Of a stretch of 64,000 nucleotides of DNA, positions 44,096 through 57,662 are shown piece by piece; position 1 is the first letter of the stretch; each line of letters starts with the position of its first letter. The stretch comes from a virus. The notes below the pieces were generated by a model, which was not told where the DNA came from, made no database searches, and was given only the letters and a program-made list of their open reading frames with translations. The translations under genes and the position numbers were made by a program. Location: positions 1 through 64,000 of IMG/VR virus record IMGVR_UViG_3300024502_000010; one strand, given 5' to 3'.

Positions 44096-44119
44096 TTAGT
44101 GGTTTGTGGTTGTCCTTAC

Positions 44120-51843: not shown

Positions 51844-52332
51844 ATGCAGGTATTAAAGATGAAAGAACACCCAGAACATAAAGGTTATTTTATCACAGAA
51901 AACGGTGAAGTTTGGTCATACTGGCGCAATCGTGGAAGAGATGGGTGGGGAGTAGTATTGGATAAAGAACCAAAAAAAAGAAGATTTAATAATCATTGCA
52001 AGGGATACTTGACTGTTTGGATTAAAACGGAAGAAGGACAGAAGTTAAAAAAAGTTCATCGTTTGGTCGCAGAAACTTACATTCCAAATCCAAATAATCT
52101 CCCTCAAGTTAATCACATTGATGGCGTAAAAACAAACAACAATGTCAGTAATCTTGAGTGGTGCAGTAATCAAAAAAACACGGAGTTGGCATTAGCAAAA
52201 GTTCATCGGTTAGTAACACCAACTGGAGAAATAGTAGAAGTTTTTAATCTTGGAAAGTTTTGTAGAGAACATAAAATTGATAGGGGAGACCTTTATAAAG
52301 GGAAAAAGTCCAAAGGTTACTATTTGCAATAA
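51844..52332 (+). CDS. HNH homing endonuclease with NUMOD4 domain
   Basis: 162 residues. NUMOD4-type N-terminus about 11-75 (HKGYFITENGEVWSYWRNRG...GYLTVWIKTEEGQKLKKVHRLVAETYIPNP). HNH core about 71-115: VHRLVAETYIPNPNNLPQVNHIDGVKTNNNVSNLEWCSNQKN, with H72, N90-H91 and the NNNVSNLEW Asn. Short C-terminal DNA-binding tail (EIVEVFNLGKFCREHKID). Free-standing mobile HNH nuclease, opposite to all neighbours, with its own late promoter. Its stop abuts the next minus-strand stop with no gap. Confidence 0.92.
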   Translation: MQVLKMKEHPEHKGYFITENGEVWSYWRNRGRDGWGVVLDKEPKKRRFNNHCKGYLTVWIKTEEGQKLKKVHRLVAETYIPNPNNLPQVNHIDGVKTNNNVSNLEWCSNQKNTELALAKVHRLVTPTGEIVEVFNLGKFCREHKIDRGDLYKGKKSKGYYLQ

Positions 52333-54263: not shown

Positions 54264-54281
54264 AGGGTAAATGCGTCTTAC

Positions 54282-54309
54282 ACTATAGGTACACTTTAGA
54301 GGATCCAAG
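54282..54309 (-). repeat. 28-bp linker, copy 11
   Basis: Exact consensus; the stop TAA of the 59-residue gene is 1 nt away. Confidence 0.95.
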
Positions 54310-54310
54310 T

Positions 54311-54490
54311 TTAATTCACTGGAAGTTTTGCCATTGACTTACCTTTTTTGTGGTCTGTGATATACTTTCGCGCAGAACTTTCGGTCCTACAAACTTTCTC
54401 AAGTTGCTGACCATTGTGAATGATAAGATACTGATTCCCAAACGGAATTGCAGCATATGTATCCTTGAACATTGTAAATCCTTCTTTCAT
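54311..54490 (-). CDS. 59-residue basic protein
   Basis: MKEGFTMFKDTYAAIPFGNQ then YLIIHNGQQLEKVCRTESSA and RKYITDHKKGKSMAKLPVN. Starts 3 nt after the methyltransferase stop. A small beta/alpha domain with a Lys-rich tail. Function unknown; co-transcribed with the restriction-modification pair, so it may be an accessory. Confidence 0.6.
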   Translation of the reverse strand: MKEGFTMFKDTYAAIPFGNQYLIIHNGQQLEKVCRTESSARKYITDHKKGKSMAKLPVN

Positions 54491-54492
54491 CG

Positions 54493-55356
54493 TTACATAA
54501 ACTTGGTAAGACCAACAGTTTCACTAACTCTCTTTTCAATCAATTTACCATACTCCTCGTGAAGTTCGCATCCAACATAATTCCTTCCCAAAGATTTGGC
54601 AACAGCAGCAGTAGTCCCACTACCCATAAATGGGTCAAGAATAGTGTCACCTTCACGAGAACCAGCAATAATACAAGGTTCAATAAGTTCTGGAGGATAA
54701 ACTGCAAAGTGAGAACCTTTGTATGGTTTAGTTGTTACTTCCCATACACTACGTTTCCGTTTTAATTCCTTGCCATCTACAGTGGGTTCTTTAATCGAAT
54801 CAACATCAAAATAATAGTTCTTGCTCTTAGATAAGAGGAAGATATATTCGTGAGATTTGGTACATCGATCTTTCATACTTTCGGGCATTGGATTTGGTTT
54901 GCTCCAAATAATATCCTGTCGTAGATACCAACCATCTGCACGCAAAGCAAATGCTAGCATCCAAGGAATACCAATCAAATCTTTATCCTTTAGACCCTCA
55001 AGTTTATTTCCTCTTCTAGGATTTCGTATTTGTGGCAAATCTTGGTTGTTAGATGCCACAGATTGCTTAGGTAGTGTCTGACCTTTACCAGAACGATAGT
55101 TGTAATAAGAATCACCAATGTTAACCCACAATGTGCCATCATCTGTAAGAACATCACGCACACCGCGAAACACCTCTACCAGTTGGGAGATAAACTCTTC
55201 AGGCGACTCTTCTAAACCAATTTGATTATCTTCGTTACCGTAATCACGCAGACCGTAGTATGGTGGAGAGGTCACACACATTTGTGCTTTTACACCAGCG
55301 TCTACAAAATGTTTAAGAGTTGAGCGGCAGTCACCATAAAGAATAACATCCTTCAT
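54493..55356 (-). CDS. TSPPY-type DNA methyltransferase (beta class), partner of the adjacent nuclease
   Basis: 287 residues. The catalytic motif IV is TSPPYYGLRDYG (29-40), the TSPPY form typical of cytosine-N4 and some adenine methyltransferases. The AdoMet motif I is DPFMGSGTT (241-249), C-terminal to motif IV as in beta-class enzymes. Other conserved parts are DGTLWVNIGDSY, KDLIGIPWMLAFALRADGWYLRQDIIWSKPNPMPESMKDR and HEYIFLL. The start overlaps the stop of the MvaI/BcnI-type endonuclease (ATGA), the classic arrangement of a type II restriction-modification operon. It presumably protects phage DNA from that nuclease. M.MvaI, a CCWGG enzyme, is of this N4-cytosine type, but the target is not readable here. 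Confidence 0.85.
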   Translation of the reverse strand: MKDVILYGDCRSTLKHFVDAGVKAQMCVTSPPYYGLRDYGNEDNQIGLEESPEEFISQLVEVFRGVRDVLTDDGTLWVNIGDSYYNYRSGKGQTLPKQSVASNNQDLPQIRNPRRGNKLEGLKDKDLIGIPWMLAFALRADGWYLRQDIIWSKPNPMPESMKDRCTKSHEYIFLLSKSKNYYFDVDSIKEPTVDGKELKRKRSVWEVTTKPYKGSHFAVYPPELIEPCIIAGSREGDTILDPFMGSGTTAAVAKSLGRNYVGCELHEEYGKLIEKRVSETVGLTKFM

Positions 55357-56048
55357 TCAAGAACCTCTTTTACAAACAATTTATCCATATTTGAGTGATT
55401 TATACGAAAGCAAGTGCCACGATTGCGAACACCCTTACCAGTGCCAACATTATACTGGGTTCTCAGTCGTAAGTCAATAGAAATTACATCATCTTCGATT
55501 GCCTTACGAAACAGATTTTTATCAATAGAAATGTAGACATACGCTTCATTGTAGTGAAAATACTCTATACCATTACGAACTTCAACATCGGCAAATACTT
55601 TAACACAAGATGGAAATTTGTGAGCAAACTGTTTAATAAGTGAATCCCAATCCCACCTAACAATCTCCAGTTCTTCGTGCTTTATGGAAACATATTCATC
55701 ATCAGTATGAATCCAAAATCCTCTGTTGTTTTTGGTTCTTGTCACAGTAGATTGTCCAGACAATTCCCCAATGTGTTTTGTGTGAGGAAATCCAAAAGTT
55801 TCTAGGAACTTTAATTGAGGTATCTGCCATTCACCTTCCTTTGTAAAGAGAGTTTGTTTTCCACCAGCACCTTTCCTTGCTGCTTTCAACTCTTTTCCAT
55901 CAATATCTGGACCAGAGATACAATTCTCAGTCAAACCAAGTTCTTGTTCAAAAGTATGACCAACTCCAGTATCACCTTTGCGATGAGACTTTATGAAACC
56001 TTTTGCTTTAATTCGGTTGTAAGCAGGAACGAACTCAACGAAATCCAT
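55353..56048 (-). CDS. MvaI/BcnI-family restriction endonuclease
   Basis: 231 residues. TGVGHTFEQELGLTENCISGPDIDGKELKAARKG (27-60) matches the MvaI/BcnI family core: GxGxTxExxLG-x-EN then PD-x4-E-x-K. The inferred catalytic residues are D48, E53 and K55. Next come KQTLFTKEGEW and FGFPHTKH. The C-terminal FHYNEAYVYISIDKNLFRKAIEDDVISIDLRLRTQYNVGTGKGVRNRGTCFRI completes the family pattern. Monomeric MvaI-type enzymes cut CCWGG (MvaI) or CCSGG (BcnI), but the target here is unknown. It overlaps the methyltransferase start by 4 nt. A plausible role is attack on host or competing phage DNA. Confidence 0.88.
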   Translation of the reverse strand: MDFVEFVPAYNRIKAKGFIKSHRKGDTGVGHTFEQELGLTENCISGPDIDGKELKAARKGAGGKQTLFTKEGEWQIPQLKFLETFGFPHTKHIGELSGQSTVTRTKNNRGFWIHTDDEYVSIKHEELEIVRWDWDSLIKQFAHKFPSCVKVFADVEVRNGIEYFHYNEAYVYISIDKNLFRKAIEDDVISIDLRLRTQYNVGTGKGVRNRGTCFRINHSNMDKLFVKEVLE

Positions 56049-56175: not shown

Positions 56176-57363
56176 TCACCGCCGCACTACACTATCAACC
56201 ATCTCACCCTTCTCAAACACAGCATCAACAACTCGCTGGAGTGCTCGCTCTGTAGATACTCCAACTTTGGAATATACAGGCACCACACAGAGACCGAAGA
56301 CCTTTTCTTTGCCGCCAAGGCGAAGAACCCGACCAATAGTTTGGGTCATTTCAATCACATCCATATTGCGAAGAAAGACGACCGCCTCTAGTTCGCTGAC
56401 ATTAATTCCTTCGCTCAAAATAGAGCGATGGAAGCAAACAAACTTCTTGTTAGGGTCACGACCCCAAGAATTGAGCGTGTCAAAGAATACTTCACGATTG
56501 ACTTTCTTACCATCAATAATCGCTCCAGTTTTTGAGGTGATGTAGAGGTAAGAATAACCACGCTGATTTAGTTGGGAAGCACAGTCAGTATGAGACATCA
56601 GGTTGATAAGTTGCTTCGCAGACTTAACACATACCAGGATTTTCTTGCAATCAATATCCTCCAGAGTGTCCATCAGATTGCTACTGTCACATTCAGCAGT
56701 TACCTGCTTTGGTGCAAGTACATCAAACTTCTTCGCTACAATCTTAGGAGCAATAATGTATCCTCCATCAACAAGTTCAGGAGCAGAAACGCGGCAAATA
56801 ATATCTCCATAGACATCACGATCGTTCATTCCAGGTTTAGAAGGAGTGAGCGAAGTCTTCCTGGTAGCAGTGAAGAAGTAGCAGCGGCGTGCATTAGCAG
56901 CAAAGTGCTCAGTTGCAGGGAAAAAGTGACGCTGAACAGAATTATGTGCCTCGTCAAAGTAAATGGTATCCACATCAACTTCTGCCACTTGAAGACGCGA
57001 CAGAGAGTTGTAGGTGGTTACAATCAGGCGATGATTGTCGGCATTAGCATCAACCCAGTTGCGAATCTCTTGAGGGCGAGTAGAAGACTCGTGATGAGTT
57101 TCGCCACTGTGAACATGGAAAACAGCAGCGTTAGTGATAAACTCCAGGAACTCCGAAGACAGTTGCTCTGCCAGAAGAATACGCGGAGCAACAACAACAA
57201 TGGTCTGGGGAGTTTGTGACTGCAACTCACGCAGACAATCATAGATCATCTTCAGAGTCTTGCCACCACCAGTAGGAACAATGACTTGACCTTTATCATG
57301 CTGTTGCATAGCAGCAACTCCGCGTTCTTGGTGAGGACGAAGATTGATCAGATGAGGAATCAT
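56176..57363 (-). CDS. SF2 DEAH-box helicase
   Basis: 395 residues. Motif I is PTGGGKT (30-36), motif II DEAH (137-140), motif III TAT (165-167) and motif VI QTIGRVLRLGG (341-351). Preceding RPHQERGVAAM is the Q-type region. This is a small ResIII/DEAD-like helicase, as in phage UvsW and type III restriction helicases, but shorter, without an extra nuclease domain. Located upstream of the restriction-modification pair and separated from it by the second repeat family. It may act in recombination, or in translocation with the nuclease (inference). Preceded by a hairpin/promoter unit. Confidence 0.88.
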   Translation of the reverse strand: MIPHLINLRPHQERGVAAMQQHDKGQVIVPTGGGKTLKMIYDCLRELQSQTPQTIVVVAPRILLAEQLSSEFLEFITNAAVFHVHSGETHHESSTRPQEIRNWVDANADNHRLIVTTYNSLSRLQVAEVDVDTIYFDEAHNSVQRHFFPATEHFAANARRCYFFTATRKTSLTPSKPGMNDRDVYGDIICRVSAPELVDGGYIIAPKIVAKKFDVLAPKQVTAECDSSNLMDTLEDIDCKKILVCVKSAKQLINLMSHTDCASQLNQRGYSYLYITSKTGAIIDGKKVNREVFFDTLNSWGRDPNKKFVCFHRSILSEGINVSELEAVVFLRNMDVIEMTQTIGRVLRLGGKEKVFGLCVVPVYSKVGVSTERALQRVVDAVFEKGEMVDSVVRR

Positions 57364-57609: not shown

Positions 57610-57634
57610 AATGTTGTTTCGTTTGAGTGCTTAT

Positions 57635-57662
57635 ACTATAGGGACACTTTAGAGGATCCAAG
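57635..57662 (-). repeat. 28-bp linker, copy 12 (one substitution)
   Basis: GGGACAC instead of GGTACAC on the plus strand. Upstream stop of the basic 202-residue protein 6 nt away. Confidence 0.9.

Follow-up and report, generated by a model that had tools for sequence, protein, structure and literature searches.

The window analysed here, a stretch of 64,000 nucleotides, forms positions 1 to 64,000 of IMG/VR record IMGVR_UViG_3300024502_000010, a 204,829-bp virus contig whose nucleotide sequence matches Synechococcus phages in many short stretches. Because the record contains two photosystem reaction-centre (psbA/psbD-type) genes (G000:C1:129054-132791), the virus is a cyanophage, and the location inside a phage given by the original prediction holds; a search for the capsid family Gp23 found no match anywhere, controls included, and so carries no weight. 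The features of the locus, listed along the minus strand, are:

57633..57659, minus strand: 27-bp promoter-like repeat (GGATCCTCTAAAGTGTCCCTATAGTAT) heading the helicase-nuclease-methyltransferase unit (repeat search)
56176..57363, minus strand: DEAD/ResIII helicase of the T4-GC36 family, upstream neighbour in the same apparent unit (Pfam, PHROG)
55353..56048, minus strand: PD-(D/E)xK nuclease of the MvaI/BcnI family, 231 aa (Pfam, PDB, AlphaFold2/Foldseek, conservation, dN/dS)
54493..55356, minus strand: beta-type (motif IV before motif I) amino DNA methyltransferase of the T4-GC38 cyanophage family, 287 aa (Pfam, identity, alignment, tree)
54311..54490, minus strand: 59-aa ORF downstream of the methyltransferase in the same unit (ORF list)
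54280..54306, minus strand: next copy of the 27-bp promoter-like repeat, at the start of the following unit (repeat search)

The nuclease and methyltransferase genes overlap by 4 nt (ATGA) at the nuclease stop, as had been predicted, and the unit runs from the repeat at 57633-57659 through a small ORF, the helicase, the nuclease and the methyltransferase to the 59-aa ORF. Fourteen copies of this intergenic repeat, GGATCCTCTAAAGTGTACCTATAGTRT, occur between window positions 44118 and 62263, all on the minus strand and in the coding direction, where the chance expectation for the window is none; the rest of the 205-kb genome has no copies. The copies divide the run of minus-strand genes that includes the restriction-modification pair and probably form a series of phage promoters, and the nuclease appears to be embedded in a phage transcription unit. 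Loci L131 and L132 carry a diverged form of the repeat. The helicase is a landmark of the locus and stands outside the restriction-modification pair. An HNH endonuclease gene elsewhere in the window (51844-52332, plus strand) lies on the strand opposite to its neighbours and is likely a mobile insertion. Three other IMG/VR contigs have the identical helicase-nuclease-methyltransferase order and a fourth has the nuclease-methyltransferase pair at 99.6-100% identity, which argues against an assembly chimera.

The nuclease matches Pfam MvaI_BcnI (PF15515) at E=6.7e-39, scoring 134.7 bits where the cut-off is 25, and the match spans positions 5-227 of the 227-position model; a sequence search of the PDB returned R.MvaI (6.5e-15) and R.BcnI (4.2e-9), with no matches beyond these two. 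Its AlphaFold2 model (pLDDT 90.6) has the two-lobe MvaI/BcnI fold: Foldseek matched it to the MvaI-DNA structure 2oaa (E 1.2e-18, TM 0.82) and to the BcnI-DNA structure 2odi (TM 0.80), with MutH far behind (2aor; E 0.16, TM 0.36). The family motif core from which the nuclease had been recognised is found in the sequence as G30-T32-E34-L37-G38-E41-N42-P47-D48-(x4)-E53-x-K55. Alignment to MvaI, at a constant offset, predicts E34, D48, E53 and K55 as the catalytic residues, in agreement with what we take to be the MvaI active-site numbering (E36, D50, E55 and K57); all four are invariant in 24 relatives, phage and cellular, bearing out the earlier view that they are intact. Values of dN/dS among the nucleases lie mostly at 0.03-0.2, with 0.38 in one very close pair; the protein has therefore been kept functional. 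Judged by its sequence and predicted fold, the nuclease is a real MvaI/BcnI-family member with intact catalytic residues, and it is presumably an active enzyme.

The methyltransferase, of TSPPYYGLRDYG type, matches Pfam N6_N4_Mtase (E=4.1e-57), with the TSPPY and DPFMGSGTT motifs noted earlier located at residues 29-33 and 241-249. TSPPY fits m4C, yet the nearest solved relatives, CcrM and MboIIA, are m6A enzymes, so the sequence assigns neither m4C nor m6A; the AlphaFold2 model of this protein was poor (pLDDT 62) and was left out of the analysis. Homology and the T4-GC36 helicase neighbour both place it in T4-GC38: it is 64-72% identical to the solitary 'dam' methyltransferase of that family in cultivated cyanomyoviruses, and the helicase adjoins the T4-GC38 gene or lies within a few kb of it in S-SSM5, P-SSM2, P-SSM4, P-SSM7 and P-TIM68. 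Solitary methyltransferases are common in cyanophages.

The nuclease, by comparison, is missing from almost all phage isolates: a search of 50,697 annotated phage records found one occurrence (MH319755, 59% identity). Scans of IMG/VR gave 26 nuclease loci, and a methyltransferase scan added more; about 20 distinct phage nuclease sequences or loci are represented. In every phage locus whose contig is long enough, the same methyltransferase family directly follows the nuclease, usually with an overlap (ATGA or TTGA) that joins the ATG or TTG start codon of the methyltransferase to the stop codon of the nuclease, so that an adjacent nuclease and methyltransferase, as in type II systems, have been kept together across these loci. 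Among the 80 best-matching methyltransferase loci in IMG/VR, only a handful have the nuclease (L073-L076 and L079-L081). Two MAG contigs (L022 and L023) carry a nuclease 66-68% and a methyltransferase 79-81% identical to the window's, one of them with a cyanophage-type helicase; on the strength of these identities and the helicase we set aside an archaeal or planctomycete origin and took both as phage sequence in MAGs. The methyltransferase comes directly after the helicase in S-SSM5 and AG-345-O18, and the helicase has no methyltransferase behind it in S-B43 and S-SKS1; these neighbour patterns therefore define three states of the locus, with the helicase alone, with helicase and methyltransferase, and with helicase, nuclease and methyltransferase.

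The nearest cellular nucleases are 32-40% identical to the phage protein. Every readable cellular partner is a different methyltransferase, of TSPPYGDSRTT or TSPPYGDSKTT type, mostly 420-460 aa long and with motif I before motif IV, the opposite of the phage order; further cellular neighbours are of similar size, with a larger one in Lactococcus, and the cellular nuclease and methyltransferase genes are sometimes convergent. The phage pair has no TSPPYGDSRTT-type partner of the kind that marks an MvaI/BcnI-type operon. Because the cellular partners differ and the phage partner belongs to a resident cyanophage family, the pair is a chimera in which the nuclease was recruited beside a phage methyltransferase. 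The locus had been described as a complete MvaI/BcnI-like operon: the nuclease family and the linked methyltransferase stand, but the partner is of a different class from that of the cellular systems, and by its sequence the nuclease is MvaI/BcnI-family in an operon that is not MvaI/BcnI-type, that is, a re-partnered system. Among the other loci, an archaeal MvaI/BcnI-family nuclease frame (L032:4001-4630) contains two stop codons and is apparently a decayed cellular copy, and a seeming nuclease-methyltransferase fusion at L031 was rejected, its joint being a stretch of X that stands for a gap in the assembly.

We asked how often nuclease and methyltransferase have come together. On a methyltransferase tree of 53 rows, sampled partly by nuclease so that frequencies on it are not estimates, linkage to the nuclease needs 5 changes against 16.3 in shuffles (0/500 as low), and well-supported branches force at least four nuclease gains or losses. 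The linked rows fall into two mostly linked clades, plus L009 and L062 isolated among solitary ones; from these sequences, repeated gain or loss of the nuclease is a firm conclusion. The two genes also have different histories. L049 and L080 have clade-II methyltransferases yet nucleases nested among clade-I partners (96/94); the nuclease of L073 is only about 45% identical to the window's, against 86-87% for its methyltransferase; and between L046 and L054 dS is 0.53 for the nuclease and 3.06 for the methyltransferase. Since trees and dS disagree in this way, nucleases have been exchanged among phages carrying the T4-GC38 methyltransferase. Such exchange makes sense if the phage methyltransferases share a recognition site, as we infer for those with exchanged partners, and an active nuclease could pass between phages only where their methyltransferases protect the sequence it cuts.

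Which site this would be is suggested by two nuclease residues. T69 and C213 align to H77 and H219 of BcnI, presumably the contacts to the central base, and MvaI has T and A there; if the outer bases are still CC/GG, this hint makes a CCWGG-like rather than a CCSGG-like site our best guess. The m4C mark and the CCWGG or CCSGG sites suggested for the phage pair are likewise guesses. The 204,829-bp genome contains 173 CCWGG sites against 250 expected and 69 CCSGG sites against 60 expected; we dropped site avoidance as a route to the recognition site, as nearly all 4-base palindromes (GATC, CATG, AGCT, ACGT, GGCC) are depleted genome-wide and give no signal for one target. In the same genome GGTACC is wholly avoided (0 against 21.8 expected), with GGCC at 23 against 89 and ACGT at 73 against 275. 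In one marine survey, viral contigs were reported as the only ones with CCWGG methylation (PMC9516812); this would fit if those contigs have the T4-GC38 methyltransferase, but it is a lead only, as the viral clade there is not tied to that enzyme.

We consider it probable that the two genes form a working type II pair that cuts unmodified host or competitor DNA while phage DNA is methylated. That the nuclease and methyltransferase work as a pair is likely, as far as sequence can indicate, because both have been retained side by side, under purifying selection, at about 20 distinct phage loci. A lytic cyanophage would thus carry a type II-like restriction-modification pair, whose monomeric MvaI/BcnI-fold nuclease would nick first one strand and then the other wherever a short sequence lacks modification, and whose methyltransferase would mark that sequence on phage DNA. 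Incoming phage DNA would already be methylated, and new DNA would be methylated by the product of the downstream overlapping gene, leaving the nuclease to act on unmarked DNA: the host chromosome (for nucleotide supply and shut-off), co-infecting phages without the methyltransferase, or both. The nuclease would be an optional cassette, acquired next to a methyltransferase which most related cyanophages have on its own, and exchanged among phages with this methyltransferase. No control gene is visible at the locus and the nuclease gene precedes the methyltransferase gene, an order that would endanger the phage if its DNA did not enter the cell already methylated. The recognition site would be common to both enzymes and the DNA cut in the infected cell would be that of host or competitor; the two sites could nevertheless differ, and the main role of the methyltransferase may be unrelated to the nuclease, because its family mostly occurs without one.

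Breakdown of the host chromosome and exclusion of other phages are both possible uses, and the data fit either. Chlorovirus restriction enzymes serve in host DNA breakdown (PMC7019647). DenA, the T4 host-DNA nuclease, is missing from marine cyanophages (PMC2993671), which makes a substitute plausible and the nuclease a candidate for this task in marine cyanophages. That the same pair serves mainly to exclude other phages, with the solitary cyanophage methyltransferases sharing its site and giving immunity, is a possibility we take seriously but consider unlikely. Partner exchange across clades, including long-loop methyltransferases otherwise without a nuclease, implies a shared site; the nuclease is patchy and the methyltransferase widespread; and marseillevirus enzymes act against competing viruses, the orphan methyltransferases there being proposed as self-defence (PMC7253447). 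The same data, however, fit host-DNA breakdown, cyanophages such as S-B43 and S-SKS1 that have no methyltransferase at the locus are well known, and chlorovirus restriction enzymes are not behind mutual exclusion (PMC7019647). Somewhat less likely still is a methyl 'password' among cyanophages, in which many phages keep a common-site methyltransferase as immunity and some carry an exchangeable neighbouring nuclease that destroys unmarked DNA. That nuclease would be the MvaI/BcnI one here and one of other restriction-like kinds in P-SSM4 and P-TIM68; if true, there would be restriction warfare among lytic phages of marine cyanobacteria, with 'orphan' methyltransferases as its defensive half.

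The two genes might instead be unmatched neighbours, a selfish homing-type nuclease cassette beside an unrelated solitary methyltransferase. Cellular relatives of the nuclease pair with an entirely different methyltransferase, the phage methyltransferase is usually alone and the histories of the two genes differ; but one methyltransferase family adjoins the nuclease in every long-enough phage locus and in several genomic contexts, the genes usually overlap, and an active nuclease whose site no methyltransferase protected would attack the phage's own DNA, so that we find this improbable. Even less credible is a MutH-like enzyme that nicks or processes DNA in repair, recombination or packaging, directed by phage methyl marks and no weapon at all: the MvaI/BcnI fold is related to MutH and the pair adjoins a helicase, but in sequence and fold the nuclease stands much nearer to MvaI/BcnI, it is missing from most phages with the same helicase and methyltransferase, as would not befit a core processing enzyme, and many loci have no helicase relative within the few kb around the nuclease. 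An inactive nuclease, binding DNA only or decaying, is the least probable of all. The recognition loop speaks for it in differing from the known enzymes (RNRG, against HDHG in MvaI and HDRG in BcnI), but nearly all cellular relatives have RNRG/RNHG-type loops too, the catalytic residues of the phage nuclease are invariant and its dN/dS is low.

A working type II pair would matter beyond this genome. A conserved and exchanged nuclease partner suggests a role, open to testing, for a methyltransferase of solitary type: it would guard against a restriction enzyme carried by a phage. The pair is also a natural example of a restriction enzyme that has taken a new partner from another class of methyltransferase, and this change of partner, with the exchange, makes it more interesting than the simple presence of restriction-modification in a phage would. 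Restriction-like modules recur in this cyanophage group, which makes any one of them less surprising and the group more interesting. In P-SSM4 (L011:4359-6004), the hypothetical PSSM4_046/047 match PHROG 18366 'restriction endonuclease II' and the methyltransferase PHROG 18657, and stand directly before the resident methyltransferase, where they form another restriction-like pair, unrelated to that of the window, at the corresponding locus. Relatives of PHROG 18366 occur in 16 cyanophage records, and we found no solved relative of it. In P-TIM68 (L013:4445-5531), the stretch from the resident methyltransferase to the helicase contains an ORF that is weakly PvuII-like (E 0.002, below the curated cut-off; motif GEDAxDEKGKCEYKS), with a PHROG 799 methyltransferase after it; relatives occur in P-SSM2 and P-SSM5. 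Five small ORFs in the slot between helicase and methyltransferase (L089:904-1347, L142:2540-2998, L102:1534-2049, L117:869-1381 and L149:2233-2781) show PD-(D/E)xK-like motifs by eye, with no Pfam support and nothing nuclease-like in PHROGs. We did not adopt the idea that this slot usually holds nucleases; by eye, most insertions are oxygenase-like, nucleotidyltransferase-like or unknown ORFs.

Among known systems, R.MvaI and R.BcnI resemble the phage nuclease in fold, length, the four catalytic residues and a single PD-x4-ExK site; they differ in the recognition loop, share about 23-26% identity with it, and are not, as here, phage-encoded with a partner methyltransferase of another class. 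The closest arrangement is that of Marine virus AG-345-L05 (MH319755), an unannotated single-cell genome fragment with the same helicase-nuclease-methyltransferase order, whose nuclease is 59% and methyltransferase 67% identical to the window's, although its methyltransferase is of the long-loop form. The solitary T4-GC38 methyltransferases of S-SSM5, P-SSM2, P-SSM4, P-SSM7 and P-TIM68 share the motif order but have no MvaI/BcnI nuclease beside them, and most such solitary forms contain an additional loop, roughly 26-31 aa long, missing in the window's enzyme and most nuclease-linked forms; a role for the loop as a specificity switch is weakened, as the same nuclease clade pairs with both forms. 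The 'restriction endonuclease II' of P-SSM4, P-SSM3, ACG-2014e and S-RSM4 is likewise restriction-like and cyanophage-borne, and in P-SSM4 lies near the same methyltransferase and helicase, but it has no detectable sequence relation to MvaI/BcnI and in P-SSM4 brings its own methyltransferase. T4 DenA and DenB follow the same logic, sparing modified phage DNA and cutting host DNA, but in T4 the base itself is modified and these enzymes are unrelated to the window nuclease. The chlorovirus (CviAII and others) and marseillevirus pairs are likewise virus-encoded, adjacent nucleases and methyltransferases directed against host or competitor DNA, though in viruses of eukaryotes and from other enzyme families than the window's.
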